Assembly (NCBI GenBank): GCA_947452455.1
Contig: CANGBX010000001.1
Coordinates: forward strand, 558,001-622,000
Direction: 5' to 3'
DNA length: 64,000 nucleotides
From: Beijerinckiaceae bacterium
GTDB taxonomy: Bacteria > Pseudomonadota > Alphaproteobacteria > Rhizobiales > Beijerinckiaceae
A program made the position numbers and the translations under genes. Shown here in pieces: positions 9,572-31,155 of this stretch (positions are counted from its first letter, which is position 1; each line of letters opens with the position of its first letter). The notes beneath the pieces are model-generated. The model ran no database searches. It had not been told where the DNA came from and saw only the letters and a list, made by a program, of their open reading frames with translations.

Positions 9572-10333
9572 TCAGGGCCGAACGGCGGGCGTCTCGAGGC
9601 GCATGCCCGCGGCACGGTCCATCAGGAAGAGTTCCAGAGCGATGGCGTCCTGAGAACCAGCCGCAATCGGCTCGGCCCGCATGCCCGACAGGCAATTGCG
9701 GAAGCGCCGCTGGAGGGAGCCGAGCGCCTGCCACTCCAGCCGATAGAGCGGGTAACCGGTCGGATGGGATTGGGGAATGGGGGCAGCACCCAAATGACCG
9801 CCCGCATTGTCATCGTGACATTGCGCGCAGGAGAAATTGAGCTGGCCCATACGGGTGGAATAAAGCGCGGCCCCCTGTGCGCGGGCTGCGGTGAGGCGCG
9901 CGTCTTTTGGGGGCGCGATGGGTAGGTCACGTGATTGATGTGCGACATAGCTGGTGAGCGCCAGCAATTCGCGCCCTTCGCGTTGGGGCGCGGGGGCTGC
10001 TTGGCGCTCCGTGCGGCATTGAAGGATGCGACCTGCCAGATCGAGTGGCGCTTGTGTTGTCTCATCGAAAGCCGGGTAGCGCGCGGCCACGCCCTTCATG
10101 CTTTGGGCCGCATCACCATGGCAGGAAGCGCAGGATTTTTGCGATGTGCCAGCATTGGCTTTCCAGAGCGCCTCGCCCTCCAGCACTGACAGCATGCCCG
10201 GATTAGCGAGGTCGTCTTTCTGCATGGCCTGCGTATCCGGCCCCATAAAATCAAAGCCGGATTTGCGCGCATCCTGCGCGACAGCTGGCAGAGCCGTGCC
10301 GATTATTAAAACGAGGCAGGCGAGCCTATTCAA
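9572..10333 (-). CDS. soxA: SoxA, diheme cytochrome c of the Sox sulfur-oxidation system
   Basis: The larger subunit of the SoxAX cytochrome, which forms the disulfide between a sulfur substrate and the SoxY arm cysteine in the periplasm. Two heme c sites are visible, CASCH (68-72) and CAQCH (169-173). The catalytic, persulfide-forming cysteine is in NCLSGMRAEP (Cys214). The N-terminus (NRLACLVLIIGTALPAVAQ) is a signal peptide. The only sensible start is a TTG at 10333 overlapping the end of soxZ; the in-frame ATG at 10486 would lie deep inside soxZ. It is the last gene of the eight-gene operon. No soxB or soxCD is present nearby. Confidence 0.88.
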   Translation of the reverse strand: MNRLACLVLIIGTALPAVAQDARKSGFDFMGPDTQAMQKDDLANPGMLSVLEGEALWKANAGTSQKSCASCHGDAAQSMKGVAARYPAFDETTQAPLDLAGRILQCRTERQAAPAPQREGRELLALTSYVAHQSRDLPIAPPKDARLTAARAQGAALYSTRMGQLNFSCAQCHDDNAGGHLGAAPIPQSHPTGYPLYRLEWQALGSLQRRFRNCLSGMRAEPIAAGSQDAIALELFLMDRAAGMRLETPAVRP

Positions 10334-10646
10334 CTTGAATGCTCGCAGTCTGCACCTGCGTCTCGCCCTTATTATCCGTCCAGGAAAAAACCAATGTCCC
10401 GCTGTCTGTCGCAATGGTGGTGAAAGAGATGAAGGGATTGGCTGTGATGGCGGGATGAAGCTGCGCCGAAAAAACCACCTCGCCATTATAGGTGCAGACG
10501 AATTTCTCGATAATGTCGCGCGGGATCAGCTGGCCATCCATGCCGGGACGAAAGCCCGTTTCCATCGGATGCGACATCAGCGTCTTGATCTCGATGATCT
10601 CGCCACGCTTGGATTTTTGCGGAACATTGATGAGCGCGCGGGCCAT
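10326..10646 (-). CDS. soxZ: SoxZ, sulfur carrier subunit
   Basis: The partner of SoxY in the periplasmic SoxYZ carrier. About 106 residues, starting MARALINVPQKSKRGE and containing the family stretches SHPMETGFRPG, IPRDIIEKF, CTYNGE, PAITANPF and FSWTDNKGE, and ending in the usual beta-strand rich immunoglobulin fold. No signal peptide, as usual: it is co-exported with Tat-dependent SoxY. The ATG at 10646 is 2 bases after the soxY stop, and the Shine-Dalgarno GGAGGAA lies within the last soxY codons. An upstream ATG at 10664 would overlap soxY more and lacks this spacing. Confidence 0.93.
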   Translation of the reverse strand: MARALINVPQKSKRGEIIEIKTLMSHPMETGFRPGMDGQLIPRDIIEKFVCTYNGEVVFSAQLHPAITANPFISFTTIATDSGTLVFSWTDNKGETQVQTASIQVE

Positions 10647-10648
10647 GT

Positions 10649-11092
10649 CTATTCCTCCACACAAGCAGGCATGGTGACAATGACTTCGCTTTTTGCGCTG
10701 AAATAAGTCCCGTCCGACATTTCCGCGATAGCGGTGATGAATTGCGTGTCGTTGAGCCGCATGCGGGTGGCAATTTGTGCGCGCCCACTGCGTGGCGTCA
10801 GGTTGAAGATCGCGACATCAGGCAGCGGGTTCTTCTCGTTGAAAATGCCGATGCGCGTGACGTGATTGTCCTTCGTCATCGGGCTGTCGACCAGCACGCT
10901 GAGTGGCACGGAATTGCCATTCTCGACCAGCAGGGAAATATCGAATTTGACGCGGCCCTCTTTCACAGGCTTGCCGCCCGTGAAGGCTTGAATGGAGGCC
11001 TTCATACTGTCTGGTGTGGCGCGTGCAGGCGCCACCAGCGCGAAGCTTGCGCCTGCGGCCAGAAGAGAGAATTGGCGGCGTGTCGTGTTCAT
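10649..11092 (-). CDS. soxY: SoxY-like carrier with non-canonical Cys arm (PACVEE instead of GGCGG)
   Basis: A 147-residue SoxY-family protein: Tat-type leader (NTTRRQFSLLAAGASFAL), then the beta-sandwich core with DISLLVENGNSVPL and ending in a strand followed by the swinging arm. In canonical SoxY the arm ends GGCGG and its Cys carries the sulfur substrate. Here the protein ends IVTMPACVEE, with the only arm Cys at 144 flanked by Pro-Ala and Val-Glu-Glu. This matches what I recall of a described SoxY-related group with an AACIE-type arm. The reading frame is intact into the soxZ Shine-Dalgarno, so this is not a frameshift. ATGA overlap with soxX. The cargo is likely to differ from that of true SoxY, but this is inference. 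Confidence 0.9.
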   Translation of the reverse strand: MNTTRRQFSLLAAGASFALVAPARATPDSMKASIQAFTGGKPVKEGRVKFDISLLVENGNSVPLSVLVDSPMTKDNHVTRIGIFNEKNPLPDVAIFNLTPRSGRAQIATRMRLNDTQFITAIAEMSDGTYFSAKSEVIVTMPACVEE

Positions 11093-11538
11093 TTCTGCGT
11101 GTCGTCTTTCAGGGTGACGAGAAAGGCAATGACATCTTCGATCTCTTGGGCCGAGAGCAATGTCTTGCCCTTGTAATTGGCAGCCACCCGCTCAAGCCCC
11201 TCGGTCTTATAATAGGGCGGCATGATCGTTTTTTCATTCACTTTGGTGCTATCGACCATGCGCAGGCGAATTTCACCTTCGCTCAGGCGCGATCCTGTGC
11301 CCACAAGGCTTGGCGCGAGATCGCCCTGAAAACGCTCTTCCGGAAAGGGGCCGGAATGGCAGAGCAGGCAGAGGCCCTTTTGTCGCTCGACGACAATGGC
11401 GCGGCCTTTGGCGGTATCGCCTTTCACACCCGTGAGCGATTGTGCAATGGCGCCGTTCTCGATGCGATAGGGCACAAGCGCTTGCGCTTGCGCTTGTGCG
11501 CTCACCAGCACAGCTATAAAACCAACAGCGCGCCACAT
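11089..11538 (-). CDS. soxX: SoxX, monoheme cytochrome c
   Basis: The small subunit of SoxAX, which accepts electrons from SoxA and passes them to a soluble cytochrome. A short signal peptide (MWRAVGFIAVLVSAQAQAQA) precedes heme site CLLCH (57-61), and IMPPYYKTEGL carries the probable axial Met. FQGDLAPSLVGTGSR and LRMVDSTKVN are typical of the family. Length 149 residues. Its ATG overlaps by one base the stop of the flavoprotein gene, and its stop overlaps soxY in ATGA, so translation is coupled along the operon. Confidence 0.93.
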   Translation of the reverse strand: MWRAVGFIAVLVSAQAQAQALVPYRIENGAIAQSLTGVKGDTAKGRAIVVERQKGLCLLCHSGPFPEERFQGDLAPSLVGTGSRLSEGEIRLRMVDSTKVNEKTIMPPYYKTEGLERVAANYKGKTLLSAQEIEDVIAFLVTLKDDTQK

Positions 11539-12785
11539 CAGCCGAACACTTCCTGCGTGATCGTCTTGTACCAGCCATCGGCATATTGCGCTTCAGCTGC
11601 GCGCACGCTGGCGGATGCATTGGCGGCACTCACGCCGCCAGCCCCTTGCACATCCGCAAGCAGACCTTTGGCTGGCGCATAAACACCGGCAACAGAAATG
11701 GCATAGTCAGGCTTCACCAGCGAATAGCAGGTGTTGATCAGTTTGGGTTCAGCCGGATTTTCGCCGCGCAGCAGCGTTCCAATCGCATAAGCGCAGGCCT
11801 TGGCTTGTGCATTGGCCGAAAAGGCTGATTTGGGCATGCCGCCACCCACACAAGCATCGCCGATGACATGAATATGGGGCGCTAGTTTGGCTTCAAACGT
11901 TACAGGATCAATCGGGCACCAGCCTGTCTGGTCGGCAATGCCTGCGCTGATCGCAATTTTTCCGGCTCGTTGCGGAGGAATGACATTGCCGACATCAGCT
12001 TTATGTTCGCCAAATTCCGTGACGAAGATTTTGTCCTTCGCCTTCACTTCTATGACTTTGCCGCCACCAGACAGACCGATCCATTCGACGCGGTCGCCAT
12101 AAATCTCTTTCCACGCTGCGGTGAAGAGCGATTGTTTCGAAAAAGCATCCTTGGAATCAAGGATCAGCAATTTCGACTTCGGCTTGTTGTTTTTAAGATA
12201 CCAGGCAATGAGGCTGGCGCGTTCATAAGGTCCGGGCGGGCAGCGGAAGGGATTGGCAGGCGCAGAAATAATGACCGTGCCGCCATCATTCATGGCTTCA
12301 AGTTGCTGGCGCAACAGCATGGTCTGTGCACCCGCTTTCCACGCATGCGGCATGAGGTTGCTAGCGGCTTCATCATAGCCGGGCAGGGCTTCGAAATTGA
12401 GATCAATGCCGGGTGCAAGCACGAGACGATCATAAGAAATCATCACGCCATCAGCCAAAGTTACGCGGCGAACGGAATTGTCGATTTTGCTCGCCATCTG
12501 CCGCACCAAACGAATGCCTTGGCGCTCCAATGCGGCGTAGGTGAACGTCTGCTGAGACAGATCACGAAGCCCCGCAATCACGGCATTGCTGAAGGGGCAG
12601 GAGATATATTGCGCATTGGGCTCGATCAGCGTGACGTCGAGCCCCATTCTGTGCAGGAAGCGTGCGGCCGATGCACCGCCAAAGCCGCCACCAATCACCA
12701 CGACTTTGCCTTGCGTCTGCGCCAAAGCGGGCGCGGCAAGGGCTGCGGCAGATGCGGCGAGAAGCGTGCGGCGTGTGAGCCTCAT
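11538..12785 (-). CDS. fccB: flavocytochrome c sulfide dehydrogenase, flavoprotein subunit (FccB/SoxF)
   Basis: Periplasmic FAD protein that oxidises sulfide to sulfur (or releases sulfur from a carrier), giving electrons to cytochrome c. It has a Tat signal (RLTRRTLLAASAAA), FAD-binding VIGGGFGGASAARF, and the two redox cysteines of the family, Cys182 in RCPPGPYERAS and Cys353 in INTCYSLV. A second FAD motif is VIGDACVGGGMPKS. The C-terminus has the FCSD flavin-lid domain. I start at 12785 because the ATG overlaps the cytochrome stop as ATGA and opens the Tat leader; an ATG at 12812 would add nine residues. 415 residues. Confidence 0.92.
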   Translation of the reverse strand: MRLTRRTLLAASAAALAAPALAQTQGKVVVIGGGFGGASAARFLHRMGLDVTLIEPNAQYISCPFSNAVIAGLRDLSQQTFTYAALERQGIRLVRQMASKIDNSVRRVTLADGVMISYDRLVLAPGIDLNFEALPGYDEAASNLMPHAWKAGAQTMLLRQQLEAMNDGGTVIISAPANPFRCPPGPYERASLIAWYLKNNKPKSKLLILDSKDAFSKQSLFTAAWKEIYGDRVEWIGLSGGGKVIEVKAKDKIFVTEFGEHKADVGNVIPPQRAGKIAISAGIADQTGWCPIDPVTFEAKLAPHIHVIGDACVGGGMPKSAFSANAQAKACAYAIGTLLRGENPAEPKLINTCYSLVKPDYAISVAGVYAPAKGLLADVQGAGGVSAANASASVRAAEAQYADGWYKTITQEVFG

Positions 12786-13114
12786 TTGGCGTGCCCCTGC
12801 GTGGCAAGCCATTGCGCGATGGCGCGCGATTCTTCCGGCGTGAAACCTTTGGCGATGCGGTTCATCAGTGTGGCGTCGCGCCCACCCGAGCGAAACGCAT
12901 CCATGGCGGTTTCAATGTCGAGCGCGGAGAGAGCTTTTAAAGAGGGTAGTTCTGTTTCGCCCGCGCTGTGGCAGCCAAGGCAGGCCGATGCGCCGGGCGG
13001 CGATTGGGAAACATCTTGCGGCGCTGCAAGTGAAGAGCCGCAAAGGCAGAAGAGGAGCGCTGTAAGCGCTCCTCCTGTTGTCGTCGCGAAGCGAAATGTC
13101 TTTCGCTCCTTCAT
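12782..13114 (-). CDS. small c-type cytochrome (FccA/SoxE-like)
   Basis: A 110-residue exported monoheme cytochrome c. Signal peptide with hydrophobic core TTGGALTALLFCLCG; heme site CLGCH (45-49); axial Met84 in DATLMNRIAKGF, a spacing typical of the cytochrome subunit of flavocytochrome c. It lies between the Mo enzyme (3-base gap to iorB stop) and the FCSD flavoprotein (ATGA overlap). It could therefore serve as electron acceptor for either. The FccA-like axial-ligand motif favours the flavoprotein; small cytochromes also accompany exported IorAB-type dehydrogenases. Confidence 0.88.
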   Translation of the reverse strand: MKERKTFRFATTTGGALTALLFCLCGSSLAAPQDVSQSPPGASACLGCHSAGETELPSLKALSALDIETAMDAFRSGGRDATLMNRIAKGFTPEESRAIAQWLATQGHAK

Positions 13115-13117
13115 GGA

Positions 13118-15289
13118 TCAAGCCTTGCGCAGGTCGAAGTTTTTCAACGGCACGTCACGCAGACGCTTGCCCGTTGCTGCGAAAATGGCGTTGAGCACGG
13201 CGGGGGCTGCGACGAAAATCGTCGGTTCGCCCACACCGCCCCAGAATCCGCCCGAAGGTACAGGGTAAGATTCGACCGGCGGCATGTCTGCCATTTTCAT
13301 CACTTCGTAAGTGTCGAAGTTTTCCTGCTCCATGCGGCCATTCTTGACTGTCATTTCGCCGTAGAGAAGTGCGGACAGACCATAGGCAAAAGAGCCTTCA
13401 ATCTGGGCTGCAACTTGCTGCGGATTAACGACATGGCCGCAATCGGTGGCAGCAACAATGCGATGGATTTTCAACGCACCCTTGTCGCTGACTGAGACTT
13501 CAGCCACAGCAGCGACATAAGAGCCATAGCCCATATGTTGTGAAATGCCGCGGAAGACGCCCGGTGCTGTGGGTTTGCCCCAGCCTGATTTCTCCGCAAC
13601 CGTATTCAGCACCGCCAGATGTTTCGGATAATTCTTCATCATCTTGCGGCGGAATTCGAGCGGATCTTGTCCGGCGGCATGCGCCATCTCATCGATGAAA
13701 CATTCCAGATAGATCGAGTTCTGGTTGTTGTTCACACCACGCCAGAAACCCGGACGGAAGGGCGGGTTACGCATCGCATGATCAACGAGCAGGTTTGGAA
13801 TCTCATAGCCAAACTGACCTTCCGGTCCCTGCGCATTGAGACCCTGGAATGTGCCGGGATCACGCCCTTCGACAAGCGCTTCAGGACGCAGGCCCGCCAG
13901 AATGGACTGGCCGGAAATGCGCATATGCAGGCCCACCACATTGCCCTTGTCATCCAGCGCACCTGTGAGCTTGCACATGGTGGTGGGATGATAGGTGCCA
14001 TGCGTGACATCCTGCTCGCGCGACCAGATGAGTTTGACCGGCGTGCCGGGCATTTCTTTGGCAACGAGCACGGTCTGGCGCACATAGTCGTGGCTGGAGG
14101 AGCGTCGACCAAAACCGCCGCCCAGATTCATGCGGATGACATCGCATTTTTCAATCGGCAGGCCGGAGGCTGGCACCGCTGTGGCAAGGGCAGCTTCGGC
14201 ATTTTGCGTTGAGGTCCAGACCATGCACTTGTCTGGCGTCCATTGCGCCGTGGCGTTCATGGGCTCCATGGTCATGTGATGCTGATAGGGATAGCGATAG
14301 ACCGCTTCCACTTTCTTGGTCGCGCCGGCAATGGCGGTTTCGACATCGCCTTTCTTGTTGCCGACAAATGCCTGCTTGGCATCCAGACCTTCGGTCAGCA
14401 TGGCCTTGATGGATGCGGTCGAGACAGAAGCGTTTGCGCCTTCATCCCAGACGATGTTCACCACATCGAGCGCGGTCTTGGCGCGGTACCATGTGTCGGC
14501 GACGACGACGACGGCATTGCCATCAATCACCAAAACCTTTTTGACGCCGCGCATTTTTTCGGCTTTCGCGGCATCAAAGCTTTTCACCTTGCCACCCGGC
14601 ACAGGTGTTTCCTTGATGGCAGCATTCAGCATGCCCGGCATTTTGAAATCGATGGAATAGATCTGCGAACCATCGAGTTTGGCTTTGGTGTCAAGACGCG
14701 GCAACGGCTTGCCAGCAATGGTCCAATCTTTCGGATCCTTGATCTTCACATCCTTAGGCGCTTCGAGCTTGCCAGCAGCCAGCGCGACTTTGCCATAGCG
14801 CAAGGAGCGGCCTGAGGCCTTGTGCGTGATCACACCTTTGCTGGTGGTGACTTCGCCAACCGGCACTTTCCACTGATTGGCAGCTGCCTGCATCAGCATG
14901 AGGCGCGCCGCTGCGCCGCCCTTGCGGACGTAATCTTCGGAACCGCGAATACCGCGCGAGCCAGCGGTCTGGAAATCACCCCAGATGCGCTTGCGCGCAA
15001 CGTTCTGTCCCGGTGTCGGATATTCGGTCGTCACTTTCGACCAATCGGCATCAAGCTCTTCGGCCACAAGCTGGGCGAGGCCTGTGAGTGTGCCTTGGCC
15101 CATTTCAACACGCGCCACGCGGATCACCACCGTGTCGTCTGGTTTCACGACAACCCAGGCATTGATTTCAGGCGTGTCACCAACAGCCGCTTCGGCGGTG
15201 GGAATATGAAAGCCAATGGACAGTCCGCCCGTGGCCACAGCAGCGCCGGCCAGGAAGCCGCGACGCGAAAGTTTTTGCGCAATCGTCAT
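13118..15289 (-). CDS. iorB: xanthine-dehydrogenase-family molybdopterin subunit, IorB-like, Tat-exported
   Basis: Large catalytic subunit of an exported molybdenum hydroxylase/aldehyde dehydrogenase, about 723 residues. A Tat leader (KLSRRGFLAGAAVATGG) opens the protein; then come VARVEMGQGTLTGL, LGGGFGRRSS (Mo-cofactor loop), a substrate-pocket region RGVNNNQNSIYLE and the catalytic Glu in GGVGEPTIFVAAPAVLNAIF. This is the arrangement of isoquinoline 1-oxidoreductase beta and of periplasmic aldehyde dehydrogenases that pass electrons to cytochrome c. The start at 15289 follows GGGGAGGA by 5 bases. Cotranscribed with iorA upstream and the cytochrome downstream. The symbol marks family only; isoquinoline is not implied. 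Confidence 0.88.
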   Translation of the reverse strand: MTIAQKLSRRGFLAGAAVATGGLSIGFHIPTAEAAVGDTPEINAWVVVKPDDTVVIRVARVEMGQGTLTGLAQLVAEELDADWSKVTTEYPTPGQNVARKRIWGDFQTAGSRGIRGSEDYVRKGGAAARLMLMQAAANQWKVPVGEVTTSKGVITHKASGRSLRYGKVALAAGKLEAPKDVKIKDPKDWTIAGKPLPRLDTKAKLDGSQIYSIDFKMPGMLNAAIKETPVPGGKVKSFDAAKAEKMRGVKKVLVIDGNAVVVVADTWYRAKTALDVVNIVWDEGANASVSTASIKAMLTEGLDAKQAFVGNKKGDVETAIAGATKKVEAVYRYPYQHHMTMEPMNATAQWTPDKCMVWTSTQNAEAALATAVPASGLPIEKCDVIRMNLGGGFGRRSSSHDYVRQTVLVAKEMPGTPVKLIWSREQDVTHGTYHPTTMCKLTGALDDKGNVVGLHMRISGQSILAGLRPEALVEGRDPGTFQGLNAQGPEGQFGYEIPNLLVDHAMRNPPFRPGFWRGVNNNQNSIYLECFIDEMAHAAGQDPLEFRRKMMKNYPKHLAVLNTVAEKSGWGKPTAPGVFRGISQHMGYGSYVAAVAEVSVSDKGALKIHRIVAATDCGHVVNPQQVAAQIEGSFAYGLSALLYGEMTVKNGRMEQENFDTYEVMKMADMPPVESYPVPSGGFWGGVGEPTIFVAAPAVLNAIFAATGKRLRDVPLKNFDLRKA

Positions 15290-15306
15290 GTCATTCCTCC
15301 CCGTGT

Positions 15307-15795
15307 TCAAGCGCGCTGCGCTTTGTTGTTGCTTTTTGCACCCTTGGCATTTTTGGCCGCGAGCTTCACGCCCGCGCGAATGCGGTTGTAGGTGCCGCAG
15401 CGGCAGATGTTGCTCATCTCTTCATTGATCTGCGCATCGGTCGGCTCGGGATGTTTCACGAGCAAAGCGGCAGCGGCCATGATCTGGCCGGACTGGCAAT
15501 AGCCGCATTGGGGCACATCGAGCTCAAGCCAAGCCTTTTGGATGGGATGCGTGACGGTCTTGGACAGACCTTCAATCGTGACGATCTTCTGCTTCTCGGT
15601 GAAAGAGCTGACCGGTAGCGAGCAGGAGCGCGTCGGCACGCCATCGACATGCACGGTGCAAGCACCACATGCAGCAACGCCACAGCCATATTTGGTGCCG
15701 GTCAGGCCGATCTGTTCGCGGATGGCCCAGAGCAATGGTGTGTCTGGCTCGACGTCAATATTATGAATTTTGCCGTTGATGTTCAGGCGCGCCAT
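15307..15795 (-). CDS. iorA: [2Fe-2S] subunit of the IorAB-like Mo hydroxylase
   Basis: A two-cluster iron-sulfur protein of 162 residues that carries electrons from the Mo site of IorB. The N-terminal plant-ferredoxin cluster uses Cys38, 43, 46 and 58 ([16 protein letters not shown]). The second cluster uses Cys97, 100, 131 and 133 ([16 protein letters not shown]). It has no signal peptide and presumably rides out through Tat bound to IorB. GGGAGGG lies 4 bases before the ATG. It is the promoter-proximal gene of the eight-gene operon, 17 bases before iorB. Confidence 0.9.
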
Positions 15796-15901: not shown

Positions 15902-15931
15902 ACGCGCCCGGTAAACCGGGCGCGTGTTTTT
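15902..15931. terminator. intrinsic terminator after the TauD-family gene
   Basis: ACGCGCCCGGT and ACCGGGCGCGT form an 11-bp stem around AA. The minus-strand product ends in a U-rich tract (from AAAAAT at 15896-15901). It closes the transcript ending at 15953 and insulates it from the iorA promoter region. Confidence 0.9.
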
Positions 15932-15952: not shown

Positions 15953-16774
15953 TTATTGAAGCGGGGGCACCGTATCACCGATGGTGACGCGCTTCATGAG
16001 GCGGCGTTCCTTATCGGAAAAGTCAGTGCGCGCATGGCTGGTGCAGCGATTGTCCCAGACGATAATGTCGCCAACTTTCCACTGATGCGCGTAAATCAGG
16101 CCTGTGTTTTCAATGTGATCGCACAGTTCATCAATCAAAGCGCGGCTCTCAGCTGCATCCATGCCGACAATGTGGTCCGTCATCAGACGGCAGACATAGA
16201 GAGACTTTTTGCCGGTTTCTGGAATGCGCCGCACAATGGGATGAATGGCATGGGGGCCGAGCTCGTTCTTGCCATCCGGCTTGGTCGCACCATAGGTGAA
16301 AGTGTTGAGCGCCTTCAGGCCTTCGATGCGCTTTTTGGTCGCCTCGGGCAGCGTCTCATAGGCGCGCACCATATTGGCAAAGCAGGTGTCGCCACCTTCC
16401 GAGGGGATTTCCAGACCATGCAGCGCTGCGCCCTTGCAGGGCTGGACCTGATGGATGCGGTCAAAATGGAAATCCATCTCGCCATCGGGGAGGGATCCGA
16501 CGAGCTCACCATTTTCGCGGATGTTGGAGATCACCATAATATCGTCGCGGTGCGACAGCGGCGACTTCTTGCGCGCCTTTTCTATATGGCCAAAAACCTT
16601 GCCGAATTCCACCAGCTCGTCGTCATTGATGGTCGGGCCATGGACGACAAGGACATGATATTGGTTGAAGGCGTCGAGAATGGCCTTGGAATCTTCGGGC
16701 GTGATGTTGCGCACGTCGAGCCCGACAATCTCCGCACCCAAAGGCGCGTCGAGGGGCTTCACCGAAATCGTCAT
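15953..16774 (-). CDS. TauD/TfdA-family Fe(II)/2-oxoglutarate dioxygenase
   Basis: A 273-residue non-heme iron oxygenase. Iron ligands are His103 and Asp105 (DFHFDRIHQ) and distal His248 (CTSHARTDF); the 2-oxoglutarate-binding Arg follows in DKERRLMKRVTI. Family members remove taurine, alkyl-sulfates, 2,4-D and similar groups by hydroxylation; the real substrate is not evident. GGGAGG lies 5 bases before the ATG. It sits between the sox-like operon and the outer-membrane protein, on the same strand but with its own terminator. A second family member lies at 61871. Confidence 0.87.
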   Translation of the reverse strand: MTISVKPLDAPLGAEIVGLDVRNITPEDSKAILDAFNQYHVLVVHGPTINDDELVEFGKVFGHIEKARKKSPLSHRDDIMVISNIRENGELVGSLPDGEMDFHFDRIHQVQPCKGAALHGLEIPSEGGDTCFANMVRAYETLPEATKKRIEGLKALNTFTYGATKPDGKNELGPHAIHPIVRRIPETGKKSLYVCRLMTDHIVGMDAAESRALIDELCDHIENTGLIYAHQWKVGDIIVWDNRCTSHARTDFSDKERRLMKRVTIGDTVPPLQ

Positions 16775-19282: not shown

Positions 19283-20251
19283 TCACCAGCGAAATAGAAG
19301 GGCGCCGCCCGACAGGCCCGCCCCAACCGCGCTCATCAGGACAAGATCGCCCACATGGAGGCCGCGGTTCCGCCCGGCGGTTGAAAGGGTCAGGGGAATG
19401 GTTGCGGCCGACGAATTGCCGAAGGTTTTGAGGCTGGAGAGCCCGCGCGCCGGATCAAGCCCGAGACGGCGCTCGACAGCTGCCGTGATGCGCAAGTTTG
19501 CCTGATGGGGTGCCCAATGGGTGATGTCAGCGGCGCTGACGCCTGCTTGTGCCATCACGCGCGCGGAGCTTGTCACCATTGTGTCGACCGCTTTGCTGAA
19601 CAGGCCGCGACCATCGGGCATGTGCATATAAAGCTCGTCTGCGCCGAGCTCTTTCGAAAAAGGCTTGCGGCTGCCGCCCGCCGGAATGTTGATGAAATCA
19701 TAGCCTGCGCCATCCGACACAAGATCAGCTGCCACAATGCCGCTGTGTCCTGATGCTGGCGAGACGACAACAGCGCCCGCTGCATCAGCAAAAAGTGCGG
19801 AGGTAGAGGGATCAGCCGGATTGATCCGGCGCGAGAGAATATTCGCGGCCACGACCAAAACGCTTTTGCCATGCACGCGCACCATTGAATCGGCGAGTGT
19901 CAGCGCATTGATGAAACCCGCGCAGGCGCCAGCCAGATCACTCGCGCCGCACGAGAGACCAAGCTGATGCGCCAGTAGAGGCGCTGATGGCGGCAAAAGG
20001 TGATCGGGCGTTGAAGTTGCCAGAATGAGAAACCCAATCTCGGGATGCCCCGCTTCCTCAAGCGCCATGTGTGCGGCCGGGCGTGCAAGATCGGTCAGCG
20101 CTTGCGTATCATCGGCATAATAGCGCGAGGTGATACCCACGCGCGATTCAATCCAGCCGTCTTCGAGGCCCAAGCGCGTTTCGATCTCGCGATTGGTGAC
20201 AAGGCGGTCGGGCACATAATGACCCATGCCGGAAATGCGCGTGCCGCTCAT
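19283..20251 (-). CDS. bioZ: BioZ, KAS III-like ketosynthase for the biotin pimeloyl precursor
   Basis: A FabH-fold ketosynthase of 322 residues with catalytic Cys110 (LAGACAGF), His249 (WAPHQAN) and Asn279 (TFGNSSAA). Position as the last gene of bioB-F-D-A-Z identifies it as BioZ. In alphaproteobacteria such as Agrobacterium and Brucella, BioZ condenses a C5 dicarboxyl-CoA (glutaryl-CoA, from lysine degradation) with malonyl-ACP to start pimeloyl-ACP, replacing BioC/BioH. ATGA overlap with bioA confirms coupling. By sequence alone it could be a housekeeping FabH; the operon decides. Confidence 0.9.
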   Translation of the reverse strand: MSGTRISGMGHYVPDRLVTNREIETRLGLEDGWIESRVGITSRYYADDTQALTDLARPAAHMALEEAGHPEIGFLILATSTPDHLLPPSAPLLAHQLGLSCGASDLAGACAGFINALTLADSMVRVHGKSVLVVAANILSRRINPADPSTSALFADAAGAVVVSPASGHSGIVAADLVSDGAGYDFINIPAGGSRKPFSKELGADELYMHMPDGRGLFSKAVDTMVTSSARVMAQAGVSAADITHWAPHQANLRITAAVERRLGLDPARGLSSLKTFGNSSAATIPLTLSTAGRNRGLHVGDLVLMSAVGAGLSGGALLFRW

Positions 20252-21507
20252 GCGCGTGCTCCGAATGTGTCGGCAGCTTCTTTGATTGCCTCATAAAGCG
20301 AGGCGAGTTCATCACGCGTGATGCAATAGGGCGGCATGATGTAGATTGTATTGCCGAGCGGGCGTAGCAGCAGACCACGCGACAAGAAGAAGTTGTAAAG
20401 TTTGGGGCCGATGGACGCGAGATAGCCTTCATCAGCCACGCGCAGATCACAGGCGGCGATGGTTCCGCACAGACGCACATCAGAAAAGCGCGGGTCTTGT
20501 TGCAAAGCCCCGCTCATCTCGCGCTGCCATTGCGCAATCTCAGCAATGCGGGCTTGCACAGGCTCATTTTGCCAGACATCGAGATTGGCGACCGCTGCCG
20601 CGCAAGCGATGGGGTTGGCTGTATAGGATGAAGAATGGAAAAAGGTCTTGCGGCGATCTTGCGAATAATGCGCTTCAAAAATCGGCGCGCTGGCAAGCGT
20701 GACAGCGAGCGGCGTTGAACCGCCGGTAATGCCTTTGGCAAGGCAGAGAATGTCAGGCGTGACATTGGCCTGTTCGCAAGCCAAAAATGTGCCCGTGCGG
20801 CCAAAGCCCGTCATGACTTCATCAGCAATGAAGAGTGTTTGCGTCTCACGACAGATGCGCGCCATCTCTGCGAGAATGTCTGGCGCATAGGTCAGCATAC
20901 CGCCCGCACCAAGGATGAGCGGCTCGACAATCAGTGCGGCTGCTTGTCCATCAGCGGTCGCAGCGCGCAGAGCAGAGAGCGTGTCTTGCTCTTTGCCTTT
21001 GGCGGGGAAAGGCAGACGCATCACATCGAACAGCAAAGGGTCATAGGGTGCGTTGAACACACCGCGCGCGCCCGCCGACATCGTGCCGATCGTGTCGCCA
21101 TGATAGGCATGTTCAAAGGCAATGATGCGTGTGCGGTTGATGTTTTGATTGCGCCAAAAGCCCAGCGCCATTTTCAAAGCGACTTCGACCGCTGTTGAGC
21201 CGCTATCTGAAAAGAAAGCATGCGGCAGGCCGACAATTTTGGTGAGCCGTGCGGCGAGTTCTTCTGCCGGGCGATGGGTGAAGCCTGCAAAAATGACCTG
21301 ATCGAGCTGGTCAGCTTGCGCCTTCATCGCCGCGATGATGCGCGGATGCCGATGGCCGTGTGTGATGACCCACCAGGATGAGATCGCATCCAGAATGCGT
21401 GTGCCGTCCGCGCGCTCAAGCCAAGCGCCTTCTGCGCGCGCAATCTCGATGGCGCCGGGTTGCAACGCATGCTGTGTGAAAGGATGCCAGATGGGGCCGT
21501 GGCTCAC
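20248..21507 (-). CDS. bioA: adenosylmethionine-8-amino-7-oxononanoate aminotransferase
   Basis: Class III PLP aminotransferase of 419 residues that uses S-adenosylmethionine as amino donor to convert KAPA to DAPA. Visible are HPFTQHAL at the N-terminus, [14 protein letters not shown] (characteristic of BioA), [13 protein letters not shown], the [14 protein letters not shown] motif with the PLP-contacting Asp, and the Schiff-base Lys in [23 protein letters not shown] near the end is also typical. It overlaps bioD by 4 bases upstream and bioZ by 4 bases downstream. Confidence 0.96.
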
Positions 21508-22136
21508 AGCTCCACCCCGAAATCAGCGAGATTGAAATTGTCGCGGAACGCATCTGTCAAAGACATCGCATCGAGTTTGTCGAGATGCGGCAGGCGACCC
21601 AGACGGCGCACGCCGCCCATCGTGCAGATGGTGCGCTCGCTGTCCTCATTGGCCTCACCGATGAAAGCAATGCCGGTGATGTAAATGTCGCGCAGACGCA
21701 GAGCTTCAATCGAGAGAAGCGAATGGTTGATCGTGCCCAGTGCCGTGCGTGCACACAGAACCACGGGCAAATGCCAATCGGCAAAGAGATCGATCATCAG
21801 CCAATCGCGACTGAGCGGCACCATCAGACCGCCCGCACCTTCAATCACCAGCTGATCGACGGCGGGTAATTGCAAGAGACGCTTGCGGCTGATTTCCATA
21901 TCATCCAGCTCGGCGGCGCGATGGGGCGAAAGTGGTGCGGTGAGTTTGTAGGTTTCGGGCAGAATTTTGTGGCGCGGCAGGCCTGACAAGCGCCCGACAA
22001 TCTCGCTATCCGTTTCGCCTTCAAGGCCCGATTGCACAGGCTTCCAATAATGCGCTTGCAAGGCGCCAGCCAGTGCGGCTGAAAAAACAGTCTTTCCGAT
22101 ATTCGTATCTGTGCCCGTGACAATGAATCCGCTCAT
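21504..22136 (-). CDS. bioD: dethiobiotin synthetase
   Basis: ATP-dependent carboxylase that closes the ureido ring of dethiobiotin from DAPA. 210 residues; P-loop [15 protein letters not shown] at the N-terminus, Lys/Glu contacts in YWKPVQSG, the [11 protein letters not shown] loop and [12 protein letters not shown]. The family is normally 210-240 residues, so it is complete. ATGA overlaps with bioF before it and bioA after it. Confidence 0.96.
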
Positions 22137-23263
22137 GCTGCGCGCTCCTGCATCAGACGGGAGAGTGCTGCACCCAAAGCATCGATATTGTCGTGCGTCA
22201 GATTGGCCGAGAGCGTGATGCGCAAACGTGCTGTGCCTTCCGGCACGGTCGGTGGTCGAATGGCGCGAATGTCAAAGCCTTCACGTGCCAGTGCTTGCGC
22301 CATGTCGAGCGCGTGCCGATCTGCGCCCAGCACAATCGGCTGGATCTGTGTGCCGGTGACGGGCAGGCCCATTTTCTGCAAATGCCCATTCAGTTGGCCA
22401 ATGCGCTCTTGCAAGCGCGCGCGACGATCATCGGCTTTTGCGCAAATCTTCAAAGCGGTCCGCACACCTGCCGCCATAAGCGGCGAAGGCGCTGTGGCAT
22501 AGATGAAGGCGCGCGAGCGATTGATCATGAAACGACGCAAGAGTTCGGGCATGAGAACGAGTGCGCCCGAGACCCCGAGTGCCTTGCCGCATGTATGCAG
22601 GCTGATGATGTTTGCTTGGCCTTCAAGATCGGCCGAGAGCCCGCGCCCCTGCAGGCCTTGCACGCCTGTCGCATGGGCTTCATCAATGAACAAAATGGCG
22701 TCATAGCGTGCGGCGAGCTTGGCGATCTCTGCGATTGGCGCGAGATCGCCATCCATCGAATAGAGGCTTTCAATCGCAATGAAGCAACGCGCATCTTTAT
22801 TGCCGACACGAAAAGCGCGCAGCTTGTCTTCAAGCTGCATGATATCGTTGTGAGCAAAAAAATCTGTCTGGGCTTTGGTCAGGCCGAGACCCTCATGTGT
22901 GCTCGCATGCACCAGCTCGTCATATAAAACGAGATCGCCACGTTGCGGCAGCGTCGAGATCAGCGCGGCATTGGCGGCAAAGCCGGCGCCAAAGTACAGC
23001 GCGCTTTCGGCCCCGAAAAATGCGCAAGCTTCTGCTTCAAGCGCTTCATGTTCGGGATGATTGCCGCGCAAGAGGCGTGAGCCGCCAGCACCCACGGGCA
23101 CGCCACGTACCAATGCTTCTTGCAGGGCATGCGTCAGCTCGGGCGATTCCGCGAGGCCCAGATAATCATTGGAGGTGAAATCAACACCGGCGCGGCCTTC
23201 AAGCTTGCGCAAACGTCCGCGACGGTTCAGGGCTTCGAGCGCCTGTTCATACCTCGACAGCAT
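22133..23263 (-). CDS. bioF: 8-amino-7-oxononanoate synthase
   Basis: PLP-dependent condensation of pimeloyl-ACP/CoA with alanine to KAPA. Motifs: [53 protein letters not shown] and the PLP-Lys region [11 protein letters not shown]. 376 residues from the ATG at 23263, which has GAAGAG just upstream and overlaps the bioB end by 17 bases. A longer frame to 23326 would add a non-homologous extension inside bioB. Confidence 0.95.
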
Positions 23264-24251
23264 GGCGCTCTTCGCCCATCTGCGCATTGCGCAAGCCGAG
23301 GCGGCGGAACAGGGCCGCATCTTCATCTTCGCCCGGATTGTCTTTGGTCAGCAGGCATTCGCCGGCAAAAATCGAATTGGCACCAGCAAAGAAACAGAGC
23401 GCTTGCATTTCCGCACTCATTTCTGTGCGCCCCGCTGACAAGCGCACGTCAGAGGCAGGCATGAGAATGCGCGCCAGCGCAATGGTGCGGATGAATTCGA
23501 TCGGATCGATTTTGCCTTCCTGCTCGAGCGGCGTGCCCTCGACAGGGATGAGCAGATTCACCGGCACGCTTTCGGGATGTTCCGGCAGATTGGCGAGCGT
23601 CAACAGCATATCGACGCGGTCCATTTTTTCTTCGCCCATGCCGACAATGCCGCCACAGCAGACTTTGATGCCCGCTTCGCGCACATGGGCGAGTGTTTTA
23701 AGGCGGTCTGCAAAGGTGCGCGTCGTGATCACCTTTTCATAATGGCGCTCTGACGTGTCGATATTGTGGTTGTAATAATCGAGCCCCGCTTCTTTCAAAC
23801 GGATCGTGTCTTGCGCCGAGAGCATGCCGAGCGTCATGCAGGTTTCCATGCCGAGCGCTTTCACGCCCTTGACCATGGCGACAATGCTTTCCATGTCGCG
23901 CTCTTTCGGGCTGCGCCAAGCGGCACCCATGCAATAGCGCGTGGAACCAGAGGCGCGCGCCTTTTTGGCTTCTTCCAGCACGCGCTCGACTTCGATCAGT
24001 TTTGAAGCTTTCAAGCCGGTCTGGTGATGAGCCGATTGGCTGCAATAGCCGCAATCTTCGGGGCAGCCGCCGGTTTTGATGGAGAGCAGCTGGCTGCGCT
24101 GGACGGTATTGGGGTCGAACATGGCGCGATGTGTCAGATGCGCGCGAAACAGGAGATCGTTGAAGGGCAGGTCATAAAGCGCCTGCGCTTCCGCGCGTGT
24201 CCAATCGTGGCGGATCTCCGGCCTCTGGCCGATCGGGGCATGCATGTTCAT
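23247..24251 (-). CDS. bioB: biotin synthase
   Basis: Radical-SAM enzyme that inserts sulfur into dethiobiotin. The [4Fe-4S] motif is CPEDCGYC (Cys63, 67, 70). Ligands for the sacrificial [2Fe-2S] cluster appear as the Cys in [15 protein letters not shown] and [12 protein letters not shown] and the Arg in RLSAGRTEM. The ATG at 24251 is preferred, with AAAGG about 10 bases upstream; a TTG at 24260 is too close to that site. It is the first gene of the operon. I see no BioR-type operator (TTATCTATAA) or other known switch in the 120 bases before it. Confidence 0.96.
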
Positions 24252-26882: not shown

Positions 26883-28643
26883 TCAGGTGGCGCGATGGCC
26901 TGTTGTGGCCGCGCCGCGCTCTTCGCCCGGCGTCACATGCACGTCGATCAGCACGACGCCGCCCTTGGCCAGAATCTCCGCACCGCGTTTCATCGCAGGT
27001 CCAAGATCGGCGGGGTTGGTGATCGGGCCGATACCGACCACACCCTGCGCTTCGGCAAATTTGGCGAGATCAACATCGGGATCGGAAATGCGCTGACCGA
27101 TCCAGCGGTTTTCCAACGGACGATTGCGTTTTTTGGCGACCGTCTCCTGATGCAATTCATCATTGAAATAGGAGCGGTTGTTGTTGATGACGAGCATCAG
27201 CGGAATCTGGTGACGCGCGGCCGACCAGATCGCATGGCCACCCATCAAAAAGTCACCATCGCCCAAAACGCCAACCGTTTTGCGGCCCTTGTCCTGCATG
27301 GCCAGCGCAATGCCGATGGAGATTGAGGGCATGCCGCCAATGCCGCCGCCGCCATCCTTGCCCATATAGGCGAGTGGCGAATGTGCGGGCCAGACATCCA
27401 TCGGGAATTTGCGGCACACGCCGGTGAGCGTCACTTCATCCTGATCGGGGAAGGCTTCGCGCAGTGCGAGTGCCATTTGATCCACATTGATGCGGCTTTC
27501 ATCGCGCGTCGGGATTTTGCGGATTTCTTCATGCCAGCATTTGGTTTTGCCGGGGCCGAGTTCTGCCACCAGATCAGCAATCACCGCATCGGGAGAAGCC
27601 GCCATGAATATATCAAGCTCGGGGAGTGCGAGATAATTGGCATGCGCGCCATTGTGCAAATGCTGATCAAGCGAAACATGAATGGCCTTGGCCTTCAGTT
27701 TCTCTCCCTTGATCCGCAGCGCAGAATCGAGATCGACCCAATCAAAAGCCAAGATCACATCGGCATCGCGCAGCATGTCGCGCACATATTCAGCCGAGCG
27801 GCCGACCTGTTCGAGGGGGGCGACCACATGGCAAGGATGATCGGTCGGGAAGGATGTGCGGTTTTTCAAGTCGGTGAAAACCACAGCGCCCAGACGCTCC
27901 GCCAGCGCGATGCGATTGTTCCAGCCAGATTCCGTCCAATCCGTCTTGCCGATGAGCAGGACTGGTTTTTTGGCGCCCTGCAGAAGTTTCGCGGTCGCCT
28001 CAATATCGACCTTGGCGGCGCGGGGCGGGGCGGGTGGCTGAAGGCGGGCGAGATCAGGAAAGTCAGGGGCTTTTTCGAGAGCTGCTTCCTGCAGGCCTGC
28101 ATCAAGGCAGATATAGACCGGCGCCTTGGGTTCCGAGCGCGTCATAATATTGGCGCGTGCCATGGCTTCGACGAGCGCATCGGCGGAGGAGGGCTGGTTA
28201 TCCCATTTCACAAAGTCACGGATCATCCCGCCCTGATCGGCGGAGGTGTGGATCCAGTCGATCCAAGGGCGGCGCTGGCTGGCATCCACCGGGCCGGTAG
28301 CACCCAGCACGAACATGGGCGCGCGGTCGCACCAGGCATTGTAGAGGCCCATCATGCCGTGCAGCAGGCCGACATTGGAGTGGAGCACGCAGGCCATGGG
28401 CTCGCCGGTGGCTTTGGCATAGCCATGGGCAATGCCCACCGCATGGTCTTCATGCAGGCACAAAACCATCGAGGGGGTCATATTCCCCAGATGATTGACG
28501 ATGGAATCATGCAGGCCGCGGTAGCTCGCGCCCGGGTTGAGGCTCACATATTTGAAGCCGAAGCGGCGCAGCATCTGGGCGGCCACATCGCTGCCAAACC
28601 CCACTTTATCGTCGATTTTCCCAACCGGGCGGTCAGCGCGCAT
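26883..28643 (-). CDS. thiamine-diphosphate-dependent enzyme (acetolactate synthase / benzoylformate decarboxylase fold)
   Basis: A 586-residue protein with the three-domain layout of this superfamily: N-terminal PYR domain with the cofactor-activating Glu65 (CLHEDHAVGIAHGYAKATG), central domain (LLQGAKKPVLLIGKTDW), and C-terminal PP domain with GDGDFLMGGHAIWSA and NNNRSYFND binding Mg-ThDP. Substrate residues do not match acetolactate synthase closely, so a 2-oxoacid decarboxylase or carboligase is equally likely. The ATG at 28643 has AGGGAGAG 4 bases before it, which excludes the ATG at 28661. It is divergent from the CoxL-type operon across about 180 bases, suggesting shared control and a common catabolic pathway. 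Confidence 0.82.
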   Translation of the reverse strand: MRADRPVGKIDDKVGFGSDVAAQMLRRFGFKYVSLNPGASYRGLHDSIVNHLGNMTPSMVLCLHEDHAVGIAHGYAKATGEPMACVLHSNVGLLHGMMGLYNAWCDRAPMFVLGATGPVDASQRRPWIDWIHTSADQGGMIRDFVKWDNQPSSADALVEAMARANIMTRSEPKAPVYICLDAGLQEAALEKAPDFPDLARLQPPAPPRAAKVDIEATAKLLQGAKKPVLLIGKTDWTESGWNNRIALAERLGAVVFTDLKNRTSFPTDHPCHVVAPLEQVGRSAEYVRDMLRDADVILAFDWVDLDSALRIKGEKLKAKAIHVSLDQHLHNGAHANYLALPELDIFMAASPDAVIADLVAELGPGKTKCWHEEIRKIPTRDESRINVDQMALALREAFPDQDEVTLTGVCRKFPMDVWPAHSPLAYMGKDGGGGIGGMPSISIGIALAMQDKGRKTVGVLGDGDFLMGGHAIWSAARHQIPLMLVINNNRSYFNDELHQETVAKKRNRPLENRWIGQRISDPDVDLAKFAEAQGVVGIGPITNPADLGPAMKRGAEILAKGGVVLIDVHVTPGEERGAATTGHRAT

Positions 28644-28821
28644 CCGTCTCTCCCTTGTCATTTATCTGTGGCCCCTTGGCGGGGCTCGTCGAGGGGGCCG
28701 ATTTGGGACGCGCGGCGCCCCCAAGTCAACTGAAGCCCGGACTTGCCGGGGGGATGATCTCTCTTTAGGAACAGTGATCAGGAGACCCGGGACCACTGGG
28801 CACGAGGAGAGGCAAGCGACT

Positions 28822-31155
28822 ATGGGACAGTTCGGTATCGGCCAGCCCGTCCGCCGCAAAGAAGACGTCCGCCTTCTGACCGGCAAGGGCCAATATACGG
28901 ATGATGTGAATTTTGACGGTCAGACTTGGGCCGCTTTTGTTCGCTCTCCGCAAGCGCATGCGAAAATTCTGTCGATTGACACATCGGCCGCGAAAGCAGC
29001 ACCCGGTGTCGTCGGCGTTTTCACAGGCACTGATATGAAGGCCGATGGCGTTGGCACGCTGATCACCGATGTCGAATTCAAAGATCTGGCCGGCAAGGAC
29101 ATGTTCCGCCCCAAGCGCGACTTCATGACGATTGATCGTGTGCGCTTCGTCGGCGAGATCGTCGCTGTTGTTCTCGCCAATACGCAGGCACAAGCCAAAG
29201 CCGCCGCCGAACTCGTCATGGTTGATTATGATGGGTTGCCTGCTGTGGGCTCGACAGCCTTTGCGGCCTCGCCCGACAGCCCGGTGATCTGGGAAGAGCA
29301 TGGCAGCAATGTCGGCATCCATTGGGAAAACCGTCCCGAAGCCGAAATTGATGTGCATATGGCCAAAGCCAAGACGCGCGTCACGGTCGACATCGTCAAC
29401 AATCGCGTTGTGCCAAACCCGATGGAGCCGCGCTGCGCCGTGTCGAAATGGGAGAATGGCGAACTCACCATGTATGCGCCGACCCAAGGTGGCCGCCGCA
29501 TTCAGCAGGGCATTGCCAAAATCGTCATGAATCTTCCCGCCGACAAGGTGCGGATTATTTCACCCGATGTCGGTGGTGGCTTTGGTATTCGCGGCAAACT
29601 TTATCCGGAACTCGGCGTCGTGGCTTGGGCCGCCCGCAAGATTGATCGCCCTGTCAAATGGCGCGGTGATCGCTCGGAAACTTTCGTGTCCGATTATCAT
29701 GGTCGCGACCAGATCAACCATGCCGAGCTTGGCCTTGATGCCAATGGTCGCGTGGTGGCGCTGAAAGTGCGCACAATTGTGAATTGCGGCGCTTACTTTG
29801 CTGAAAACGGTCCGCGTCTGCCCATCAACGGCGGTGGTCGTATCATTCCCGGTGTCTATGACATCGAGAATTTCTATTTCTCGGTGCGACCCGTTCTCTC
29901 CAACACGGTGCCGACAGACACGTATCGTGGCGCTGGCCGTCCGGAAGCCAACTTCCTGATGGAACGCCTGATGGATGCTGCGGCTGATGCCACGGGTCTG
30001 GCGCGCGATGAAATTCGCCGCCGCAATGTCATCAAGCCGGAGCAATTCCCCTATCGTACGCAGATGGGCATGCTGATCGATTCCGGTGATTTCATCGGCA
30101 ATATGGATATGGCGATGAAGGCGGCTGATTGGGCGGGCTTCGATGCGCGCCGCGCAGAGAGCGCCAAGCGCGGCAAGCTGCGCGGCATCGGCCTGTCGAA
30201 TTTCGTCGAACCGTCAGGTGGTCGCCCGACCGAAGAAATGCGCATTGCCGTTTCACCGGAAGGCAAGGCGACTGTTTATGCGGGCACCCATTCACATGGT
30301 CAGGGCCATGAAACAGTCTGGGCACAATTGCTCGAAAGCTTCTTGGGCATTCCGTTTGAAAATGTGACGCTCGTGCAAGGCGACACGAAGATCATGCCGA
30401 AGGAAGCTGCGGGTACATTCGGCTCTCGCTCGTCATGGATGGGTGGCGTTGGTCTGCAACGCTCGGCCAAGCGCATTGTCGAGAAGGGCACGAAGATCGC
30501 CGCCAATCTCATGCAGTCTGAGCCTGAGAAGGTAAGCTTTGATGCGGGTGTTTTCCGCGCTGGCACATCGTCTGTCACGCTCGCCGAAGTGGCGAAAGCG
30601 TCTTACGAGCCCAAGAACCTGCCGGACGGAATGGAGCCGGGCTTGGATGAAAGCTATTTCCTCAAGCGCGATCCGGAAGAATTCAACTATCCCAACGGCA
30701 CGCATGTGATCGAAGTGGAAGTGGATCCTGATCTCGGCAAGATTGAAATGCTGAATTACATCGCGGTGGATGATTGCGGCAAAGTGCTCAATCCTTTCAT
30801 CGTCCATGGACAGGTCTATGGCGGTGTCGCCCAAGGCATTGGTCAGGCCATGACAGAAATGACCGTTTACGATGACGAAGGTCAGCTCGTGACGGGGTCT
30901 TTCATGGATTACGGCATGCCGCGTGCCGAACATCTCTCCATGATCGATGCGCTCTTCAATGAAGTGCCGTGCAAGACCAATGATCTGGGCGTCAAGGGTG
31001 CTGGCGAAGCCGGTGCTTGCGGTGCGCCGGGCGCTTTCGTCTCGGCCGTCTGCGATGCGCTGAAAGGTTATGGCATCCGCCACATCGACATGCCGATGAC
31101 GCCTGATCGCGTCTGGGCGACCATTCAAAAGGCCAAAGCTGGAAAAGCGGCCTGA
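28822..31155 (+). CDS. CoxL-type (form II) molybdopterin subunit of a molybdenum hydroxylase
   Basis: A 777-residue large subunit of the aerobic CO-dehydrogenase/xanthine-oxidase family. It opens GIGQPVRRKEDVRLLTGKG, typical of CoxL-like proteins. The active-site loop reads TYRGAGRPEAN (near residue 368), the form II signature, not the AYxCSFR of genuine CO dehydrogenase. SPDVGGGFGIRGK and the catalytic Glu in GVKGAGEAGACGAP are present. The true oxidised substrate (aldehyde, N-heterocycle or other) is unknown. The start at 28822 has GAGGAGAGG 9 bases upstream. It leads an L-S-M operon. No Tat signal, so cytoplasmic, unlike the IorB-like protein at 13118. Confidence 0.9.
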   Translation: MGQFGIGQPVRRKEDVRLLTGKGQYTDDVNFDGQTWAAFVRSPQAHAKILSIDTSAAKAAPGVVGVFTGTDMKADGVGTLITDVEFKDLAGKDMFRPKRDFMTIDRVRFVGEIVAVVLANTQAQAKAAAELVMVDYDGLPAVGSTAFAASPDSPVIWEEHGSNVGIHWENRPEAEIDVHMAKAKTRVTVDIVNNRVVPNPMEPRCAVSKWENGELTMYAPTQGGRRIQQGIAKIVMNLPADKVRIISPDVGGGFGIRGKLYPELGVVAWAARKIDRPVKWRGDRSETFVSDYHGRDQINHAELGLDANGRVVALKVRTIVNCGAYFAENGPRLPINGGGRIIPGVYDIENFYFSVRPVLSNTVPTDTYRGAGRPEANFLMERLMDAAADATGLARDEIRRRNVIKPEQFPYRTQMGMLIDSGDFIGNMDMAMKAADWAGFDARRAESAKRGKLRGIGLSNFVEPSGGRPTEEMRIAVSPEGKATVYAGTHSHGQGHETVWAQLLESFLGIPFENVTLVQGDTKIMPKEAAGTFGSRSSWMGGVGLQRSAKRIVEKGTKIAANLMQSEPEKVSFDAGVFRAGTSSVTLAEVAKASYEPKNLPDGMEPGLDESYFLKRDPEEFNYPNGTHVIEVEVDPDLGKIEMLNYIAVDDCGKVLNPFIVHGQVYGGVAQGIGQAMTEMTVYDDEGQLVTGSFMDYGMPRAEHLSMIDALFNEVPCKTNDLGVKGAGEAGACGAPGAFVSAVCDALKGYGIRHIDMPMTPDRVWATIQKAKAGKAA

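Follow-up and report, generated by a model that had tools for sequence, protein, structure and literature searches.

A Sox-type carrier with an AACIE arm is linked to a molybdenum hydroxylase, not to SoxB, in a conserved bacterial operon

We analysed an operon in a 64,000-nucleotide stretch of DNA (the window) from a freshwater Beijerinckiaceae bacterium (GenBank assembly GCA_947452455.1, contig CANGBX010000001.1, positions 558,001 to 622,000), in which genes for a molybdenum enzyme are joined to a flavoprotein gene and to soxXYZA. Eight intact genes lie on the minus strand at 9572-15795 in the order iorA-iorB-cytochrome c-fccB-soxX-soxY-soxZ-soxA. Their spacing is tight: gaps of 17 and 3 bases are followed by overlaps or 2-base gaps, as we checked on the sequence, in agreement with the single transcript-like unit proposed in a preliminary description of this locus. 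The gene set, strand, coordinates and families given in that description were likewise borne out. Seven of the eight genes scored above a curated family cut-off, the exception being the small cytochrome.

IorA (15307..15795, minus strand like all eight genes; 162 amino acids) is the [2Fe-2S] small subunit of a xanthine-dehydrogenase-family enzyme, with Pfam Fer2 and Fer2_2 above cut-off, and at least 8 cysteines are present in all 76 of its relatives with a length of at least 140 residues. IorB (13118..15289; 723 amino acids) is the molybdenum-cofactor large subunit (Pfam MoCoBD_1/2) and is predicted to be exported by twin-arginine translocation (Tat), its TAT signal (TIGR01409) scoring above cut-off. 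IorA has no signal peptide of its own and is probably exported together with IorB. The GxGEP motif is kept in the window IorB and in 79 of 79 relatives. Molybdenum-cofactor domains, a [2Fe-2S] subunit and the C-terminal GxGE glutamate place the pair in the xanthine-dehydrogenase family (IorAB type). Its subunit make-up, molybdenum-cofactor domains and GxGEP motif are those of the isoquinoline 1-oxidoreductase and membrane aldehyde dehydrogenase type, to which 8gy3 belongs; chain C of 8gy3, an aldehyde dehydrogenase large subunit, is the closest solved structure (best PDB match, 254 bits). An AlphaFold model of IorB built on a shallow, 15-row alignment was of too poor quality to use (mean predicted local distance difference test score 58.3, predicted template modelling score 0.52).

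The small mono-haem cytochrome c (12782..13114; 110 amino acids) carries a CLGCH motif and matches Pfam Cytochrome_CBB3 at 21.8 bits, below the cut-off of 27; CxxCH was found in 62 of 62 relatives. FccB (11538..12785) is a flavoprotein of the flavocytochrome c sulfide dehydrogenase (FCSD) type (Pfam FCSD_central and FCSD-flav_bind). It matches 5n1t and 1fcd over nearly the full length and retains both redox cysteine motifs, CPPGPYER and TCYS; the first recurs in 68 of 75 relatives, and several misses of the second in our motif count were misses of the pattern. The Allochromatium FCSD has a di-haem cytochrome subunit, whereas the partner cytochrome in the window, at 110 amino acids, has a single CxxCH.

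Three of the Sox proteins score above the cut-offs of thiosulfate-Sox models, as expected of a canonical system (SoxXA, SoxYZ and SoxB, with or without SoxCD). SoxX (11089..11538; TIGR04485, 73.3 bits, cut-off 61) is a mono-haem cytochrome whose CxxCH is present in 99 of 99 relatives. SoxZ (10326..10646), the partner of SoxY, reached 99.4 bits with TIGR04490 (cut-off 76) and also passed the Pfam SoxZ cut-off. SoxA (9572..10333, with a probable TTG start at 10333; TIGR04484, 219.2 bits, cut-off 110) is a di-haem cytochrome in which alignment to 1h31 and 2c1d revealed both haem motifs and the active-site cysteine. Two CxxCH motifs occur in 101 of 101 SoxA relatives, and the active-site cysteine was found in 98 by pattern and in the remaining 3 on inspection. 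In contrast to the canonical GGCGG arm, the sulfur carrier SoxY (10649..11092) has an arm ending in PACVEE. It falls below the cut-off for the thiosulfate-type GGCGG protein (TIGR04488, 94.8 versus 125 bits) and scores above the curated cut-off for the NCBIfam "SoxY-related AACIE arm protein" (TIGR04487, 187.2 bits, cut-off 172). That model names a protein; we saw no description of an operon or a function with it. Because IorB carries a Tat signal by model and twin-arginine stretches are visible by eye at the N-termini of SoxY and FccB, we read the machinery as periplasmic.

We then asked how widely this arrangement is shared. A pattern scan yielded 386 loci with a SoxY relative, of which the best 80 were retained; as the scan patterns include the arm and the LVENGN stretch, this set leans to AACIE arms. 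Among the 61 loci offering at least 3.2 kb upstream of soxY, iorB was present in 60 and fccB in 54. The linkage of iorAB to soxXYZA in relatives, which the preliminary description had offered as a check, thus held. A six-gene form without the small cytochrome and fccB accounts for 6 of the 60 iorB-carrying loci and was seen in several further genomes. The operon order recurs in Alphaproteobacteria, Burkholderiales, Steroidobacter and Rokuibacteriota, and carriers include Microvirga, Bradyrhizobium, Paracoccus, Azospirillum, Chelatococcus, Steroidobacter, Rubrivivax, Curvibacter and a Rokuibacteriota metagenome-assembled genome. A cultured carrier, Methylobacterium sp. NMS14P, has the eight genes annotated in order, and the annotation pipeline PGAP applies the TIGR04487 name in other genomes. 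The same operon also occurs on a conjugative plasmid, pNgVX of Neorhizobium galegae VafX2, where the matches to iorB and to the small cytochrome are each split between two reading frames, so that both look frame-broken in the record.

The genes are under purifying selection. Compared with a near relative (locus L034), ratios of non-synonymous to synonymous substitution rates (dN/dS) for all eight genes were 0.03-0.31; the small cytochrome was the least constrained, with 0.51 against a very near relative (L032) at a dS of only 0.05. The carrier arm is conserved as well: xAC was found in 102 of 102 main-group loci and C-x-E/D in 100 of 102. In a SoxY tree computed with the arm columns omitted, SoxY proteins with a GGC arm were split off by a single change (support 90/89, 92% of bootstraps, the bootstrap not having settled). 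None of the 12 GGC-arm loci that we picked by hand from the hit lists had iorB nearby. Four loci (L256 and L261-L263) have arms ending in GACS and no iorAB, so a non-GGC arm by itself does not imply iorAB. Three of these, L261, L262 and L263, have the order soxX-soxY-soxZ-soxA; SoxB is absent from all three genomes (G286, G364 and G191), and SoxC exceeds the cut-off in G286 and G364. On pSymA of Sinorhizobium meliloti (L292 and L293), soxY-soxZ-cytochrome-fccB with an NGCL arm occurs with no adjoining soxXA or iorAB.

The host genome (3.05 Mb, 95.6% complete) gave no match to SoxB, and the operon copies of SoxY and SoxZ were the sole matches to these proteins. Of the reported absence of SoxB and SoxCD, the SoxB part therefore holds for the operon, the window and the genome, and the SoxCD part for the operon and the window only: a SoxC-family sulfite dehydrogenase above cut-off (490 versus 420 bits) lies on another host contig, away from the operon, between two c-type cytochrome genes (contig C2 of the host assembly, 504196-505437; locus L162, 6644-9552). 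The lack of soxB in the operon, together with SoxB clusters elsewhere in other carriers, might suggest a duplicated or decaying piece of a canonical sox cluster beside an unrelated oxidase. We find this scarcely credible. The eight genes are intact and, the small cytochrome least of all, constrained by selection; their order is conserved across classes; SoxY forms a group of its own; and no further SoxY or SoxZ is encoded in the host. A remnant of a canonical cluster is ruled out by the conserved order, the SoxY grouping and the purifying selection, to which the co-occurrence of AACIE SoxY and IorB described below can be added, and the preliminary description was right to set the operon apart from such clusters.

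To place these proteins at the level of genomes, we used a draw of 385 alphaproteobacterial genomes, the host included, in which related genomes are not independent and for which statistics are uncorrected for kinship. SoxY above the AACIE cut-off was present in 21 genomes, SoxB in 38, SoxC above cut-off in 41, and an IorB at least 60% identical to that of the window in 31 (29 whole and 2 partial places). An IorB of this clade accompanied AACIE SoxY in 21 of 21 genomes and occurred in 10 of the 364 others (Fisher p 2e-27). AACIE SoxY showed no association with SoxB (2/21 against 36/364, p 1.0) or with SoxC (2/21 against 39/364), while SoxB and SoxC were paired, SoxC being present in 27 of 38 SoxB genomes versus 14 of 347 others. 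Thus, the AACIE SoxY depends at the genome level on the IorB clade and is independent of SoxB. Tied to IorB and not to SoxB, the system is neither a substitute for SoxB nor part of its pathway.

A second draw, of 398 genomes across the phylum, contained 15 carriers above the AACIE cut-off, two of them (the host and G361) common to both draws. All 13 phylum-only carriers have iorAB beside the AACIE sox set, and all 13 have SoxB, which lies either on a different contig or no closer than 289 kb. Nine belong to the same taxonomic order as the window's bacterium, and the three of these included in a tree group with a Bradyrhizobium; the other four, whose genomes measure 1.7-2.1 Mb, come from a single genus that is not in the class. 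SoxB at another locus was thus found in 2 of 21 class-draw and 14 of 15 phylum-draw carriers, or 15 of 34 distinct carriers overall, and never inside the operon. The suggestion that soxB is missing from genomes carrying the operon consequently fails as a rule.

These data bear on the possibility that IorAB replaces SoxCD, oxidising SoxY-bound sulfane sulfur in a pathway for inorganic sulfide or polysulfide. IorAB would occupy the same position in the scheme as the molybdenum enzyme SoxCD, an FCSD-type flavoprotein is present in 54 of the 61 loci, and SoxC exceeds its cut-off in only 2 of 21 carriers. Such a replacement nevertheless seems quite improbable: members of the xanthine-dehydrogenase family are known as hydroxylases of carbon rather than of sulfur, no product-releasing hydrolase is linked to the operon, and the host also encodes a SoxC-like enzyme.

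SoxY shares a contig with IorB, or with a piece of IorB, in 24 of the 31 genomes with the IorB clade; in two others (G071 and G093) the contig ends inside or just after fccB. In an IorB tree, Sox-linked forms occupy three places: a main clade; L148 and L255, where iorAB and soxYZ are followed by fccB-soxX-soxA; and L253 and L254, where soxYZ precedes iorAB. A single origin was rejected when rows that are or formerly were linked were constrained to one clade (approximately unbiased test, p-AU 1.6e-64, from a quick tree with some long branches). An earlier tree had recovered one clade; it left out unlinked IorB of 36-45% identity and is superseded by the fuller one. No sox genes were found beside IorB of this unlinked type in any of 20 loci, picked by hand from the hit lists. 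The Sox-linked clade is distinguished from the host's other IorB proteins (26-29% identical) by 33 near-invariant columns that the latter lack. The three places imply that the association arose more than once or that IorAB was replaced within an old association, and both speak for a functional link. In L148, L255 and L253, representing two divergent forms of the association, a protein with an FGE-sulfatase domain occurs along with iorAB, soxYZ and an FCSD-type flavoprotein. At L290 (G200), a second IorA/IorB pair, its IorB 29% identical, lies directly 3' of soxA in an iorAB-type sox set.

Genes around the operon gave little hint of a substrate: in a clustering of neighbours, only near relatives had neighbours in common, for example TauD and a cupin gene. 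A TauD-family dioxygenase gene (15953-16774, minus strand) lies directly upstream of iorA and adjoins the operon in the near relatives L032, L034, L035, L041 and L042, not in distant ones. Between it and iorA is a terminator-like hairpin (15902..15925, minus strand) with a 10-bp stem, 9 GC pairs and an ATTTTT tail; as 11 such sites were found in the region against 8.7 expected, it counts as a consensus match only. Elsewhere in the window, a second xanthine-dehydrogenase-family large subunit is encoded at 28537-31155 (plus strand). Within NCBIfam it resembles most closely glyceraldehyde dehydrogenase alpha (584.6 bits, cut-off 790) and aerobic CO dehydrogenase, in neither case above cut-off. 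Four neighbouring genes at 19283-23326 (minus strand) are of biotin-synthesis type (class I/II aminotransferase, AAA_26, class III aminotransferase and FabH-like synthase) and are presumably bioF-bioD-bioA-bioZ.

What the parts do elsewhere suggests how they may work together. SoxXA oxidatively joins a sulfur compound to the SoxY arm cysteine, and SoxB takes off the sulfone group as sulfate. Enzymes of the xanthine-dehydrogenase family hydroxylate carbon, their electrons leaving via [2Fe-2S] centres, and FCSD oxidises sulfide or persulfide. With no SoxB in the host, SoxY-bound thiosulfate would be a dead end there; if the substrate had both a thiol sulfur and a carbon open to oxidation, all the parts would find a use. 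Our preferred reading, held tentatively, is that the operon may encode an intact pathway, inherited widely and located in the periplasm, that acts on an organic compound containing sulfur and is distinct from canonical thiosulfate oxidation, with the Sox parts handling the sulfur and IorAB the carbon. The substrate would be a small organic compound bearing thiol or sulfane sulfur. SoxXA would attach this sulfur by oxidation to the arm cysteine of SoxY or, where SoxYZ has been lost, to a small thiol, and IorAB would oxidise the substrate carbon, at an aldehyde or a C-H next to the sulfur, and pass electrons to c-type cytochromes. The flavoprotein could re-oxidise sulfur remaining on the carrier. 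The SoxB step would not be needed, as no sulfone group would be formed. A core of carbon oxidation, supported by the handling of sulfur, fits the constancy of IorAB, the near constancy of SoxXYZA and the optional FccB: SoxXA and the AACIE-arm SoxYZ go genetically with IorAB as the constant core, FccB and the small cytochrome forming an optional module. This reading is favoured by the conserved gene order, by the dependence of AACIE SoxY on the IorB clade and not on SoxB, by G091 and G127, which have both the sox set and the IorB although the two lie apart, by the linkage in three places of the IorB tree, by the separation of GGC-arm SoxY, none of the 12 examined having iorB nearby, by the retained haem, cysteine and molybdenum motifs, and by the low dN/dS.

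Several observations weigh against this organosulfur pathway. Enzymes related to IorB use free aldehydes or heterocycles as substrates, and the nearest solved one, 8gy3, is itself named an aldehyde dehydrogenase. The complete, single-contig genome G066 has iorA-iorB-soxX-soxA with haem and cysteine motifs intact (L247) and no match to SoxY or SoxZ anywhere. Four of the 31 clade genomes have an IorB place with no adjoining sox genes (G370 C87, G292 C63, G127 C175 and G091 C24); G370 and G292 have a second, sox-linked IorB copy at 49-51% identity, and G091 and G127 have both parts, with an xAC-arm sox set elsewhere (L128 and L138). On the two Sinorhizobium meliloti plasmids that we examined, among 256 plasmid records matching IorB, a cytochrome c gene lies upstream of iorA-iorB and sox genes are absent within 8 kb; on one further such plasmid, that of strain T073, soxY-soxZ-cytochrome-fccB with the NGCL arm lies about 436 kb from iorB. 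As the rows of the first two Sinorhizobium plasmids are nested among Sox-linked forms of IorB, loss or relocation is the simpler reading there. Methylobacterium sp. WSM2598 (L092), the sole exception among the 61 testable loci, has soxXYZA with no iorB within 10-kb flanks. CPPGPYER is absent from 7 of the 75 FccB relatives, those of operons L081, L088, L093, L096, L112, L052 and L074, where FccB may not act as a sulfide dehydrogenase. The co-occurrence statistics carry no correction for kinship, and the SoxC-like enzyme of the host makes sulfur oxidation by another route possible.

Some of these observations would suit two parallel enzymes instead. IorAB would then oxidise free aldehydes or heterocycles in the periplasm, as its closest solved relative suggests, and SoxXA, SoxYZ and FccB would scavenge sulfide or thiols that accompany the substrate or would poison the enzyme, with no common protein-bound intermediate. 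The existence of iorAB without adjoining sox genes, and with SoxXA only, agrees with this. We consider it somewhat unlikely, however, since AACIE SoxY is found only where the IorB clade occurs (21/21), the linkage appears in three places of the IorB tree, and the arm is consistently unlike GGCGG. Within the organosulfur pathway, the most far-reaching possibility is that SoxXA loads an organic sulfur compound onto the AACIE arm of SoxY, that this arm then enters IorAB, and that the compound is oxidised there at carbon, which would make IorAB a xanthine-dehydrogenase-family enzyme acting on a carrier-held substrate. This step is doubtful. The preliminary description had suggested that SoxYZ may offer a bound compound to the molybdenum enzyme or the flavoprotein, and in its strict form the idea is counted against by the SoxYZ-less G066 and by the iorAB loci without sox genes.

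The nearest described parallel is the quinoprotein-dehydrogenase-associated SoxYZ (TIGR04557; PMC11237559), likewise a Sox-type carrier adjoining a periplasmic carbon dehydrogenase. It differs in its fused SoxYZ and pyrroloquinoline quinone enzymes, and the window SoxY (60.1 bits) and SoxZ (47.6 bits) stay well below the model's cut-off of 140. The same survey of SoxY diversity discusses other divergent SoxY proteins adjoining carbon dehydrogenases and states that sequences without GGC were deleted, so the AACIE type would have been dropped. PMC4782131 reports SoxYZ with a flavocytochrome in SAR324, for which it suggests a novel mechanism where the Sox complex is incomplete, and separately reports isoquinoline 1-oxidoreductase genes; PMC12262181 and PMC12423496 describe other Sox arrangements, SoxB included. 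Our literature search, which covered subscription literature thinly, so that an earlier description is possible, found no account of the operon. The tie between a Sox-derived module and a molybdenum hydroxylase thus appears to be new, while the SoxY variant was already named in NCBIfam.

In conclusion, the soxX, soxY, soxZ and soxA genes, usually taken as evidence of thiosulfate oxidation, have in this operon a second, SoxB-independent use that is tied to a molybdenum hydroxylase. The operon makes it testable whether SoxYZ carries organic substrates. If the substrate is indeed held on the carrier, the operon would represent a periplasmic organosulfur pathway that works without SoxB, is widespread among bacteria of soil and freshwater, and has so far been easy to mistake for partial thiosulfate oxidation.

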